Source of the DNA: Halorubrum lipolyticum DSM 21995 | GTDB taxonomy: Archaea > Halobacteriota > Halobacteria > Halobacteriales > Haloferacaceae | Length of the DNA: 60,237 bases | Direction of reading: 5' to 3' | Assembly: GCF_000337375.1 (NCBI RefSeq) | Contig: NZ_AOJG01000009.1 | Coordinates: forward strand, 106,820 to 167,056 | In this document: in pieces, positions 1 through 31,738 of the stretch | Position numbering within the stretch: the first letter of the stretch is position 1 | How the letters are laid out: each line of letters opens with the position of its first letter | Notes under the pieces: model-generated | Seen by the model: the letters and a program-made list of their open reading frames with translations, nothing else | The model's database searches: none | Told to the model about the DNA's origin: nothing | Program-made: the position numbers and the translations under genes

Positions 1-57
1 CGAGCAGAGAGGGACCTCCGGTCCCTCATGCAGCCGGCGCGCAGCGCCGGCGACGAA

Positions 58-176
58 GCGAGCGACGAGGCTGGGGAGGCGTGAGGCTGTGCGGGGCGGG
101 ACTCAAAGGGGCAGCCGCCTCGCCGGCTGGGGCTTTGGACGTGTTCACCGGAGAGCCGTCGATCACGTATAAATAA
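58..176 (+). repeat. Dispersed intergenic element, copy 1 (full core)
   Basis: Full copy of the repeat family seen again at 10903, 25376, 28952, 29230 and 30527. A conserved left block (58-103) shared with the 28952 copy ends in GGGACTCAAAGGGGCAG. A symmetrical hairpin follows: CAAAG 104-108, GGG 109-111, CAGCCG 112-117, six-base loop, CGGCTG 124-129, GGG 130-132, CTTTG 133-137. After it come the GTGTTCACC box (141-149) and a TATAAATAA tail. Another TATAAATAA follows near 202. It lies beyond the 3' end of the response regulator gene, in the opposite orientation to it. Bases 1-57 hold two small GC hairpins; 211-391 shows nothing I can name. Confidence 0.8.
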
Positions 177-391
177 CCGACAGCAACACCCCTCGATCAC
201 TTATAAATAACCACTCAACCAACTCGCTATACTCACTCCCGCTATCGATCGAGAAGCAATTTTCGACGCCCCTCGTTCCGTACCGCTTTGCATCCGAGGA
301 ATCGGCCTTCGAAAGCGTCGAAACACCCGAATTCCGGAGCCCCTACTCAGTCCTCGCGTCGGTTTTCGGGAGGAGGGACGAGCGCCTGTCG

Positions 392-10902: not shown

Positions 10903-11037
10903 TGGCTCTGTAGTGACCTGCTTCAAATCGCCGGTTGATCGCTTATAGACGGTTAACAGCGGATCGACGAGAACGACCTCCAAAGCCCCAGCTGCGAGGA
11001 CTCGCGGCAGGGCGAGAGCCTCGCGCCCTGTCGGCAC
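10903..11037 (-). repeat. Dispersed intergenic element, copy 2 (right half)
   Basis: Read on the minus strand it carries CTGGGGCTTTGGAGGTCG, a diverged GTTC box and TATAAGCGATC. The GCGAG-rich hairpin arm before the GGGGCTTTGG box is shared with copy 3. The TATAAG end points toward the doxX stop codon, so it is antisense and downstream of doxX. It also lies just upstream of gshA. It lacks the left block with ACTCAAAGGGG. Confidence 0.75.
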
Positions 11038-17547: not shown

Positions 17548-17655
17548 CGCCAAAGCGCTCGCGGACCGCCGAAGCGCCCGCGGACCGCCAAAGCGCCCGC
17601 GGACCGCCAAAGCGCCCGCGGACCGCCAAAGCGCCCGCGGACCGCCAAAGCGTCA
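17548..17655 (+). repeat. 19-base tandem repeat between rnp4 and trm5
   Basis: Five full units of CGCCAAAGCGCCCGCGGAC (17548-17642) with few changes, followed by a partial sixth. The unit length is not a multiple of three and it starts directly after the rnp4 stop. It runs up to the trm5 promoter. There are no spacers, so it is not CRISPR. Confidence 0.95.
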
Positions 17656-17657
17656 GC

Positions 17658-25375: not shown

Positions 25376-25500
25376 TGGTGACCACTTTTGAGGATCGAGG
25401 CGATCGCTTATAGATAGCCGGCCGGAAATTCTCGACGAACGTCCCCAAAGCCCCAGCCGCGAAGGCTCGCGGCAGGGCGAGAGCGAAGCTCTCGCTTGCA
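25376..25500 (-). repeat. Dispersed intergenic element, copy 3 (right half)
   Basis: On the minus strand it reads GCTGGGGCTTTGGGGACG, a diverged TTCG box, then ATCTATAAGCGATCG. Before the GGGGCTTTGG box is a GCGAG hairpin, CCGCGA-gcct-TCGCGG, shared with copy 2. The TATAAG end faces the stop of the Nudix gene, 48 bases away. Homology with copy 2 continues beyond the TATAAG (AAGCGATC... GGTCAC). Confidence 0.75.
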
Positions 25501-28795: not shown

Positions 28796-28951
28796 GGTGG
28801 TGCGTCGCGGCCCCGCGAAAAGCGCCTTTCGGTCGGACGCGGTGACGCGTGCGCGAGCCAAATGGAGAGAGCGGAAGAGCAACCGAGACTGTCGCAGTGG
28901 CGCGTGCCTGCGAGCGCCCGCAGGGCGCGAGTCAGCACGCGCGAGGGAGTC

Positions 28952-29225
28952 GCTCGCCGGAGGCGAGCGACGAGGCTGGGGAGGTATGAGGTGCTGTGCG
29001 GAGCGGTGCGGGGTGGGACTCAAAGGGGCAGTCGCGATTCCCGCGAGCAACGCGAGCGGGAAGACGGGAGACGAAGTCTCCCGGAAGGACGAAGACGGGC
29101 GACGCTAGGACCGCAGGGAGGGAGCGCTAGCGACCGACTGAGGACCGCAGCGAGCCCATCGAGTCCTCGCGACTGGGGCTTTGGCGGTGTTCACAGCCGG
29201 TCTACTGGTCGCCATTTATAAGTGA
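28952..29225 (+). repeat. Dispersed intergenic element, copy 4 (long form)
   Basis: Shares with copy 1 the block GAGCGACGAGGCTGGGGAGG, then GGGACTCAAAGGGGCAG. The hairpin is CAAAG 29021-29025, GGG, CAGTCGCGA 29029-29037 and TCGCGACTG 29167-29175, GGG, CTTTG 29179-29183. Compared with copy 1 the stem carries T-A for C-G, a covarying change. Between the arms is a 129-base insert with further hairpins, including CGGGAGAC-gaa-GTCTCCCG. A right-end box and TTTATAAG end near 29222. Confidence 0.85.
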
Positions 29226-29229
29226 ACGT

Positions 29230-29299
29230 CTGGGGCCTCGGAGGCGTTCACCGCCGATTTGCTGTCAGCTATTCGGCTTTGCTGAATGCCTTTATAAGT
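29230..29299 (+). repeat. Dispersed intergenic element, copy 4b (right half, variant)
   Basis: Reads CTGGGGCCTCGGAGG, GCGTTCACCGCCGATTTGC, a short insert GGCTTTGCTGAATGC and TTTATAAGTG. It directly follows copy 4 in the same direction. It is the nearest element to the M48 peptidase stop codon, 70 bases away, and antisense to that gene. Confidence 0.65.
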
Positions 29300-29368: not shown

Positions 29369-30364
29369 TCAGTGGAAGCGATTCTCGGAATCCGCTTCGA
29401 GCCGTTCTATTCGTGCCCTCGTGGGTGGATGTGTCGAAAACAGTCGACGTTTGAATCTCGTAACCGGTCCGGGATTCCCTGCCGGATCACCCGCATCCGG
29501 CTCAACTATTGCGAAGGCCGCTATCGATGTTCGTCGGAAATCGGTGGTCGCGCGCTCGTTGAGCGAGCTGTCGATCGTCTTGAGCGCCGACGCGAGGGGC
29601 GCTGGCTCACCGGTGATCGCAACCGCCCCGCGGTCGGCGGCGAACTCACGGGTACGGGCGAAAGAGGACGACAGTAACCGAGAGAGTATCCAGAGCGGAA
29701 AGACGAGCGTGAGACCGACGGAGAGGACGGCGTCGGTATAATCCGCACGGCTGACGACGCCGTGTTCGATTCCGGACGTCGGACCGCTAAGTAGCTCTGT
29801 GACGCGTTCGGCGGCGGCTACCGGCTGGGTTGCGGAAGTCATGACCGCCGCGTCGTGATTCTTGACGTGAGCAACTTCATGCGCGACGACCGCGCGTAGC
29901 TCCGATACCTCAAGCGCGTCCAGCAGCCCCTCGCTGACGACTAACCGAGACGTACGGGCGGTGAAACCCGTGGTCAGCGAGATCGGCGTCTCGGTCGGTG
30001 CCACGTAGACCGCGGGGACCGGGACGGCCACCTGGTGTGCGATGTTGCGAACCGTCGAAAGCAGCTCTGGATACTCCCCCTCCGACACTCGCTGAGCACC
30101 GGTGATCGCGATCGCGTGGTCGGGTGCGTTACGCTCACCCCACAACAGGACGCTCAGAATAATGCCTGATGCGGAGACGACCAATACAGTACGTATGCCC
30201 TCGGTGAAGAGGTCGGCTCCGCTGCCGGCGAAGGTCCACAGAGTGAGCGCGACGAAGAACACGACGATTCCGCCGGCAAGCGCAGCCGCGAGCGTCGTCA
30301 GGACTAACACCGACAGCGAAAGCACGATCCACAACTGCAACCACCTGTTCGGGGACCATTCCAT
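29369..30364 (-). CDS. M48 family metallopeptidase (HtpX-like)
   Basis: 331-aa membrane zinc protease. Membrane helices are near 9-40 and 60-76; the catalytic motif HEVAH (within AVVAHEVAHVKNHD) is near residue 160, two hydrophobic helices follow, and the third ligand is probably the Glu in FARTREFAADRGA. HtpX-type proteases degrade damaged membrane proteins. Base composition is lower in G+C than neighbours and the gene is flanked by repeat copies on both sides, which suggests acquisition. A TATA box (GTTTATTAAA on the plus strand) is 24-27 bases before the ATG. Confidence 0.88.
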   Translation of the reverse strand: MEWSPNRWLQLWIVLSLSVLVLTTLAAALAGGIVVFFVALTLWTFAGSGADLFTEGIRTVLVVSASGIILSVLLWGERNAPDHAIAITGAQRVSEGEYPELLSTVRNIAHQVAVPVPAVYVAPTETPISLTTGFTARTSRLVVSEGLLDALEVSELRAVVAHEVAHVKNHDAAVMTSATQPVAAAERVTELLSGPTSGIEHGVVSRADYTDAVLSVGLTLVFPLWILSRLLSSSFARTREFAADRGAVAITGEPAPLASALKTIDSSLNERATTDFRRTSIAAFAIVEPDAGDPAGNPGPVTRFKRRLFSTHPPTRARIERLEADSENRFH

Positions 30365-30526: not shown

Positions 30527-30582
30527 GGCCGGGGCTTTGCGGTGTTCCTCGCCGATTTCCCATCAGCTATTTATAAACAAGC
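30527..30582 (+). repeat. Dispersed intergenic element, copy 5 (right half)
   Basis: GGCCGGGGCTTTGCGG, GTGTTCCTCGCCGATTT, CAGCTATTTATAAACAAG. It lacks the left block. The TATAAA end faces the stop of the DRG GTPase gene 47 bases away. Confidence 0.7.
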
Positions 30583-30628
30583 GGCGAGAGCGTCGCAAGC
30601 GATCGCTCGCCCACACGGGTCCAAGCGC

Positions 30629-31738
30629 CTACTTCCGAGCGACGATCCGGAGCACGTCCTCGTCGGCCAGCTCGTGGCCCTTGCCGACCTGCTGGTCGTC
30701 GTGTTTCGCGCTCTGGCCCGACACCCGCGCGAACTTGAACCGCTCGTCGAACTCGCCGCCGATCTTCGCGCAGGCGTCGCCGACGGTGTCGCCCTCGAAC
30801 AAGATCAGCGGCTCCTCGTAGTCGACGCCGCGCCCCGGCTTGTCCATGTAGATCCGGATGAGCCCGAGTTCCTTCCAGAGCCGGTCTTTCAGCCCGTCGA
30901 GTCCGAGCTCCTTCTCGGCAGAGATGAAGAGCACGTCGTCCGGGTCAAGGTCGCGCTCGCGGAGCTCCTCTTTCACCGTCGGGAGGTAGCTCTTGTCGAT
31001 GAGGTCCGCCTTGTTGACGGAGACCATCGAGGGGAGGTACTCCCGGTTGTCCATCACGGCGTCGACCAGCTCGTCGATCGTGAGGTCGTGGGGGATCGTC
31101 ACCTTCGCGTTGACGTAGCCGTACTCGCGGAGCACCTGCTTGACGGTGTCCTCGGCGAGGCTCACGTCGTCGCTCATCGTCACCCCGATCCCGTCTTTGT
31201 GGGTCTTCCGGATGTTGATGTTCGGCGGCTCCGTGTCGAGCCGGATGTTGGTGTTGTACAGCTCCTCGCGGAGCCGGTCGTACTGCTCGATCTCGAACAC
31301 TGAGAGCATGAACACGACCAGGTCCGCGGTCCGGACGACGGAGAGTACCTCCTTCCCGCCGCCGCGGCCGCCCGCGGCGCCCTCGATCAGCCCCGGCACG
31401 TCGAGGATCTGGATGTTCGCGCCACGGTACTGCAGCATGCCGGGGTTGACGTCGAGCGTGGTGAACTCGTAGGAGCCGACCTCGCTGTCGGCGTTGGTGA
31501 GTGCGTTGATGAGGGTGGACTTGCCGACGCTCGGGAACCCGACCAAGGCGACCGTGGCGTCTCCGTGTTTCTCGACGGCGTACCCGTGGCCGCCGCCGGC
31601 CGAGGACTGGTTCTCCAGTTTCTCCTTCTTCTCCGCGAGCTTCGCCTTCAACCGCCCGATGTGGGCCTCGGTGGCCTTGTTGTAGGGCGTGTTGGCGATC
31701 TCCTCGCGGAGGTCCGCTATCTCGTCCTCCAGTCCCAT
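30629..31738 (-). CDS. DRG-type developmentally regulated GTP-binding protein
   Basis: 369-aa OBG/DRG GTPase. N-terminal coiled region MGLEDEIADLREEIANTPYNKATEAHIGRLKAKLAEKKEKLE; P loop GFPSVGKSTL near 67; G2 FTTLDVNPG; G3 DVPGLIEGAAGGRGGGKEVL; G4 VNKAD near 242; C-terminal TGS domain (about 290-369) with DKPGRGVDYEEPLILFEGDTVGD. Archaeal DRG proteins bind ribosomes and regulate translation. Start 31738 gives the standard MGLEDEI opening; a TATA-like element lies about 27 bases upstream. Confidence 0.94.
   Translation of the reverse strand: MGLEDEIADLREEIANTPYNKATEAHIGRLKAKLAEKKEKLENQSSAGGGHGYAVEKHGDATVALVGFPSVGKSTLINALTNADSEVGSYEFTTLDVNPGMLQYRGANIQILDVPGLIEGAAGGRGGGKEVLSVVRTADLVVFMLSVFEIEQYDRLREELYNTNIRLDTEPPNINIRKTHKDGIGVTMSDDVSLAEDTVKQVLREYGYVNAKVTIPHDLTIDELVDAVMDNREYLPSMVSVNKADLIDKSYLPTVKEELRERDLDPDDVLFISAEKELGLDGLKDRLWKELGLIRIYMDKPGRGVDYEEPLILFEGDTVGDACAKIGGEFDERFKFARVSGQSAKHDDQQVGKGHELADEDVLRIVARK

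Follow-up and report, generated by a model that had tools for sequence, protein, structure and literature searches.

Palindrome-associated transposable elements (PATEs) of Haloquadratum walsbyi are presented, in the sections of the source that deal with them, as haloarchaeal, high-copy, non-coding and palindromic elements that are heterogeneous between copies, have no inverted termini and are linked to ends of the IS605 type (PMC3119063). MITEs and small mobile repeats of haloarchaea are short, without a transposase and bounded by inverted termini; for the small mobile repeats, the same sections give copies that are commonly >95% identical (PMC3119063). Class I intergenic repeats of the halovirus HF2, which has a Halorubrum host, are given as 56-58 bp long with an AT-rich promoter motif in the portion of the HF2 account that covers them (PMC8707807). 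The element analysed here shares all the listed PATE properties up to the termini, and differs from PATEs in two ways: covarying hairpins and conserved boxes are strung together in its core, and part of its G000 copies (those in the window's own genome) carry inverted termini of ~40 bp. Like the small mobile repeats, it is short, lacks a transposase and has inverted termini in part of its copies; in contrast to them, its copies within one genome differ greatly in their hairpins while boxes and pairing are kept. Its 57-bp tandem unit is close to the HF2 repeat in length, and an AT-rich promoter motif and a Halorubrum host are further common points, a likeness by description to which no matching phage record corresponds.

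REP/BIME and ERIC repeats of enterobacteria are dispersed, palindromic and located between genes, often at 3' ends, and REPs measure tens of bp. The present element is likewise dispersed, palindromic and intergenic, but it is distinguished by its size of ~265 nt and by a fold of several hairpins, one of which has an internal loop of RNA type. OLE, GOLLD and HEARO are large ornate structured RNAs of several hundred nt with covarying stems and conserved boxes, and to our knowledge none of them occurs at >100 copies per genome. The element shares their size class, covarying stems and conserved boxes, and has an Rfam match to none of them.

The window, meaning the whole 60,237-nt stretch of DNA that was analysed, corresponds to contig 9:106820-167056 of a 3.43-Mb genome in 41 contigs (G000). 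Scanning it located CCAAAGCCCC exactly at 10980(+), 25445(+), 29184(-) and 138(-) and in degenerate form at 30540(-) and 29241(-), so the motif copies of the original prediction are real. With one mismatch allowed, GGGGCTTTGG has 9 window matches against 1.6 expected, a number that 0/100 shuffles reached; three of the nine belong to an unrelated 19-bp tandem repeat at 17588-17635 and one (15990) sits at a gene start. The ~19-bp short tandem repeat itself (CCGCCAAAGCGCCCGCGGA) spans 17588-17656 directly upstream of a gene start; it is unrelated to the motif and mimics it with one mismatch. The copies and their parts are as follows.

10940..11009, + strand: solo end at the site of the original prediction; TATA-like box at 10940-10949, box CCAAAGCCCCAG at 10980-10991 and a short hairpin, the remainder of the element being absent.
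25445..25490, + strand: solo end with box CCAAAGCCCCAG and short hairpins, in the convergent gap between NUDIX(+) and DUF371(-).
28894..29184, + strand: complete element, folded (G) strand; covariance model match at 28894-29029 (97.9 bits, E 8.5e-15); parts in the order start box GCAGTGGCGCG, SL3, GCGAGGGA, SL2, GAGGCTGGGGAGG, linker, GGGTGGGACTCAAAGGGGC (ends at 29029), SL1, CTGGGGCTTTGG (29173-29184).
29185..29290, + strand: degenerate second end unit, placed in tandem with the first at a spacing of 57 bp; box at 29230-29241 and TTTATAA boxes.
30529..30590, - strand: degenerate solo end with box GCAAAGCCCCGG, 3' of the GTPase gene 30629-31738(-).
1..254, - strand: copy cut by the window edge and situated 3' of HalX; boxes at 66-81, 98-112 and 127-138; at 229-247 the inverted terminus CGATAGCGGGAGTGAGTAT; covariance model match of 47.1 bits on the opposite strand.

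The only complete copy within the window is thus that at 28894-29184, and at 10980, 25445 and 30540 there is just a solo end; the covariance model gives no match at the solo ends 10940..11009 and 25445..25490. The motif first noticed, CCAAAGCCCC/GGGGCTTTGG, is one end only of a much larger folded element, a multi-hairpin array of ~265 nt. Pfam identifies the neighbouring genes as they had been named: HalX, DoxX, NUDIX and M48, plus a GTPase whose MMR_HSR1/TGS domains fit DRG. The M48 peptidase gene, 29369-30364(-), stands apart from the remainder of the window in codon usage (log-odds -31, trained caller) and was possibly acquired.

Genome-wide counts provide the copy number. G000 contains 136 exact CCAAAGCCCC (64+/72-) against 10 for a reversed-pattern control, 130 against 3 when AG is added, and 120 against 15 for the second box CCTCCCCAGCCTCG with one mismatch allowed. 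The G000 sample comprises 99 stretches around 130 of the 136 boxes (six were unplaced); from a second genome, G057 (main contig 3.05 Mb), 60 of 70 stretches were sampled and 10 left out. Complete copies share one order of parts which, read from the box, is CCAAAGCCCCAG, the long hairpin SL1, CTGCCCCTTTGAGTCCCACCC, a linker, CACCTCACRCCTCCCCAGCCTCG, SL2, TCCCTCGCG, SL3 and GCGCGCCACCGC. Strictly complete arrays make up 88 of the 179 in the two genomes, with a median length of 265. The boxes are 93-96% identical and the neighbouring left arms average 55%, a contrast that is biased upwards by the finding of boxes through search: box1 conservation is biased because copies were gathered by exact box1, and P2 and P3 also picked the rows of alignment A1.

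The two ends of the element vary between copies and genomes. The box end is at times tandem with a typical spacing of 57 bp, and arrays with 2-3 exact units number 22/108 in G000 and 4/71 in G057. In G000, TTTATAA boxes lie directly outside both element ends. The TATAA end described in the original prediction is present at the five window copies, but it is not general: most G057 copies are without it, which also argues against a general promoter function of the TATA box. Another rejected candidate is a small leaderless protein with its start at GTGAACACC, whose frame is not kept between copies (by eye). Inverted termini flank the core on one or both sides, at a constant distance, in about 28 of the 108 G000 arrays (by-eye count, without chance matches), and terminus matches in G000 total 53 against 3 in the reversed control.

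The fold of the element is retained as its hairpin sequences diverge. For SL1 (78 unique arm pairs), the stem formed by a copy's own arms is 12.97, and exchanging arms among copies lowers it to 6.78 (highest value in 300 shuffles, 7.67); for SL2 (59 unique arm pairs) it is 7.73 against 5.26 (maximum 5.85). The contiguous-stem version of this arm-swap test, which ignores the internal loop, gave no signal on SL3. Tested on either side of that loop, SL3 pairs 3.70/4 outer positions against 2.53 swapped and 4.74/5 inner positions against 3.65 (73 of 83 copies, 10 left out), and RNAalifold on 59 non-redundant copies assigns SL3 pairs up to 27 two-sided changes. The same is seen at a single site: in the gap beyond ffh, the copies of 14 species pair 12.86 of 14 positions with their own partner against 10.20 swapped (2000 shuffles, maximum 11.93), and ten of their 5'-arm positions differ by 46% on average. 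Compensatory changes in stems, a mark of structured non-coding RNA, are therefore present. Exchange of whole hairpins between copies could yield part of the pairing signal; the strand evidence is independent of it. An outer extension of the SL1 helix was discarded for want of covariation. A G-quadruplex is predicted in the minimum-energy fold of only 21 of the 88 complete copies and is retained here as an idea. If both fold and strand are borne out, the family would constitute a natural experiment in which one fold has been rewritten many times within a genome.

Wobble pairs suggest which strand folds. Across 14 SL3 pairs in 59 copies, the GGGGCTTTGG strand shows G.U/U.G in 25 cells and A.C/C.A in 2, cells that count copies and not independent changes; A.C/C.A cells would be wobbles of the opposite strand. 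The internal loop of SL3 is GA opposite GA in 52/59 copies, where the other strand would read TC opposite TC, and a tandem GA mismatch is stable in both RNA and single-stranded DNA. In SL1, wobbles of the G strand outnumber the other kind 30 to 1 at pair 3 and 17 to 1 at another position; counted as distinct events they number 28 against 16 (P = 0.096), which is weak and in the same direction. Strand-specific wobble pairs and non-canonical motifs, a second mark of structured non-coding RNA, are thus found in SL3, with SL1 weakly agreeing. The one-sided wobble and the kept GA/GA loop indicate that it is probably the GGGGCTTTGG (G) strand that folds, in the form of either RNA or single-stranded DNA.

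Two observations concern the internal make-up of the hairpins. The inner part of SL1 (GACGYAAGCACCGCAG ... GAGGAGCGCAGCGAG, folded strand) looks conserved across genera and its outer stem does not (L165-L323, L426-L450). The same extra hairpin modules occur at several positions in different copies (SL1, SL2 and linker; L165-L323; by eye), as if small palindromes were inserting into, or being exchanged between, elements.

The original prediction took a shared orientation towards gene ends as a hint of a role in 3'-end formation or mRNA stability, or of a mobile element, and allowed for chance with so few copies. In the window, the box/TATAA side does point to the 3' end of the named gene in 5/5 cases. 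Across G000, the box side faces a gene 3' end in 79/107 arrays and the other side in 66/96 (11 more lie at contig ends), without a difference between left and right (P = 0.44), and at a rate of 74% five out of five is expected about one time in five. The corresponding figures for G057 are 47/70 (P = 0.006) and 41/70 (P = 0.19). Tandem gaps are the sole class informative on orientation, and the genome-wide scan that had been proposed as a check shows no significant bias there: 20 against 14 in G000 (P = 0.39), 17 against 11 in G057 (P = 0.34) and 37 against 25 pooled (P = 0.16). These counts lend no support to an orientation-tied role in 3'-end formation or mRNA stability, and an orientation-specific 3'-end signal was rejected on their basis. 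They were made with a custom codon-based gene caller that missed the M48 gene, and a second pass adds long ORFs.

Instead, the data reveal a preference for a class of gap. Intergenic positions account for 107 of the 108 G000 arrays, and the only overlap of the remaining one is with a second-pass ORF. Elements occupy 52/96 convergent, 35/220 tandem and 10/85 divergent gaps in G000 (convergent against the others, 45/305, P = 1e-13) and 30/71, 29/168 and 12/65 in G057 (convergent against the rest, P = 5e-5); the gaps come from element-holding stretches, which inflates absolute rates, and it is the class contrast that counts. Both element ends face gene 3' ends because the element favours convergent gaps. 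Among annotated plasmid records with a match, 3/6 lie in convergent gaps, and the preference was not seen in 24 loci of five other genera (5/22 classifiable).

In Haloferax volcanii a T-tract is the intergenic termination motif and hairpins can terminate there too, according to the relevant part of the published account (PMC7237163). T-tracts accompany 40/135 genes beside the element against 31/177 comparison genes in G000, and 13/87 against 18/130 in G057. Since genes beside the element are not short of T-tracts, there is no sign of the element replacing a terminator, and this candidate was rejected. Archaeal gene-end repeats should not be called terminators from position alone.

All 30 Halorubrum genomes sampled carry CCAAAGCCCC with AG, at 3-244 copies, and the exact box occurs in 9/118 genomes of other genera with 1-2 matches each. 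The long form of the motif, searched in genome contigs, gave 14 loci, all Halorubrum. Covariance model R1, which represents the half of the element without SL1 and was run on at most 21 candidates per genome with rough E-values, detects 30/30 Halorubrum genomes, with best per-genome E-values from 2e-12 to 3e-19, and gives weak matches in 17/118 others (best E 6e-6 to 8e-4). Seven of these 17 genomes, from five genera, hold 64 R1 matches at E up to 0.01, and 24 inspected loci show the same boxes and hairpins in the same order, most with a following SL1 (by eye). Confinement to Halorubrum is therefore rejected: it nearly describes the exact box, but the model finds weak full-length matches in 17/118 genomes. 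One element sequence from another genus matches 16 plasmid records, including Halobaculum, Haloarcula, Natrinema and Halobacterium. A halovirus origin was discarded, no phage record matching the element; the 15-base pattern in viral contigs returned at least 120 stretches, taken for chance matches.

Searches of Rfam 15 at the gathering cut-off returned only a tRNA from the window and nothing from eight element-carrying loci, and L225 at a permissive E-value gave two weak matches far below the cut-off. No description of the repeat was found in open-licence PMC literature. Should fold and strand prove correct, a large folded element that is in no RNA library or paper searched is present in haloarchaeal genomes at up to >100 copies each.

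Comparison of homologous gaps between species shows that the element varies in presence and orientation. In the gap beyond hemL, 30 loci comprise 1 forward copy, 1 forward box only, 9 reversed copies, 2 reversed boxes only and 17 without any; in the gap beyond ffh, 16 of 30 loci have a forward copy and 14 have none. Gaps with and without the element were seen across these 60 loci, in species too diverged to fix the boundaries, and no clean empty/filled pair with a target duplication appeared among them. Only 3 of the 108 G000 sites match a G057 element site on both flanks (among the G057 stretches sampled), with one-sided matches for several more. A 2.2-kb gene block between two element sequences is inverted between L169 (2510-4917) and L319 (2496-5100), from two Halorubrum genomes, which is what recombination between inverted copies would give. 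At L389:1480-1800 lies a deletion derivative in which the TGGGG of two boxes is fused between two inverted termini. In a by-eye look for a parent transposase, no opposed terminus pair more than ~650 bp apart stood out in the G000 terminus list.

The explanation that we favour, at somewhat better than even chances, is a non-autonomous, dispersed and recombining mobile structured repeat that is tolerated between converging genes and moved by a putative mobiliser. The suggestion in the original prediction of a mobile element that prefers gene ends fits such a dispersed element, which favours convergent gaps and varies in presence and orientation among species at one gap. Behind the observed copy number, fold, distribution, gap preference and variation between species, we infer mobility as the cause, together with the existence of a mobiliser and recombination as the cause of hairpin turnover. 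The GGGGCTTTGG strand would fold into about three hairpins set apart by conserved boxes, and copies would spread by insertion through a putative mobilising protein supplied in trans. They may then swap parts by recombination at the shared boxes, which would produce the inverted gene block, the solo ends, the end units in tandem at 57 bp and the exchange of hairpins. Folding of a single strand would be maintained because mobilisation recognises the folded RNA or single-stranded DNA, or because the folded molecule is itself the product. Most of the insertions that survive would lie between converging genes, since they interrupt no promoter in such gaps. If fold and strand hold, it becomes testable whether single-stranded nucleic acid drives the element's spread. 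Several findings stand against it: neither a clean empty/filled pair with a target duplication nor an autonomous relative or transposase came to light; no more than a minority of G000 copies have inverted termini; common descent accounts for many copies, which retain their pairing, as in the 14 ffh-gap copies, and this fits a host function too; and the convergent-gap preference does not extend to the 24 loci of five other genera.

The main rival to a mobile repeat is a host-maintained structured non-coding RNA family, whose G strand would be transcribed from many loci and act in trans or within mRNA 3' regions, in stability, processing or as a boundary of converging transcripts. The putative ~265-nt G-strand RNA would start near GCGGTGGCGCG and end near GGTGTTCACC in the RNA reading. 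Covariation and RNA-type motifs on one strand speak for it, as do the ffh-gap copies that keep pairing despite differing arms, the relatives in several genera with the same part order, and the TTTATAA boxes directly outside both ends in G000. It is harder to reconcile with a copy number that ranges from 3 to 244 among species of one genus, with presence and orientation that vary at the same gap, with the lack of orientation bias towards neighbouring genes, with the absence of TATA boxes from most G057 copies and with G000 copies that have inverted termini. We regard a host RNA as unlikely, at roughly one chance in five.

A PATE-like derivative of an IS200/605 (Y1 transposase) element, in which near-end hairpins would be recognised as single-stranded DNA and the core would be a remnant after tnpA/tnpB loss, is distinctly improbable. 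Strand-specific folding fits single-stranded DNA, and Haloquadratum PATEs are themselves high-copy, palindromic and heterogeneous in the sections that describe them (PMC3119063). TnpB-like IS605-type insertions in L332 and L369 occupy the hemL and ffh gaps, where other species have the folded element; both gaps are thus possible hot spots for insertion, but the ends of those insertions look different. In addition, some copies have the inverted termini that PATEs lack, no copy with tnpA or tnpB inside was noticed, and three hairpins with long conserved boxes exceed near-terminal palindromes.

An ordinary dead MITE or palindrome family, its pairing kept only by whole-hairpin copying between elements and without strand-specific function, deserves about one chance in ten. 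Hairpin modules that recur at several places (by eye) and signs of recombination between copies (the inverted block L169/L319, the fused boxes of L389) agree with it, but it leaves unexplained the one-sided wobble (25 vs 2), the GA/GA loop (52/59) and boxes 93-96% identical beside left arms at 55%, a figure biased upwards. Equally speculative is the notion that what moves is a large structured haloarchaeal RNA, comparable to the SINEs but archaeal. A G-strand RNA with three covarying hairpins, the GA/GA loop and conserved G-tracts, which molar potassium might allow to form a quadruplex, would be returned to DNA at sites between genes, and the tandem 3'-end units would be by-products of this process.

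Contigs 4, 8, 10, 11, 12, 14, 16 and 18 of G000 start inside copies, and runs of N lie inside copies (e.g. L170, L176 and L181), so copy counts from short-read assemblies are probably too low. Contig breaks inside copies are as expected of repeats that disrupt assemblies, and the folded element, if fold and strand hold, would account both for such breaks and for a type of G+C-rich intergenic sequence that recurs in these genomes.
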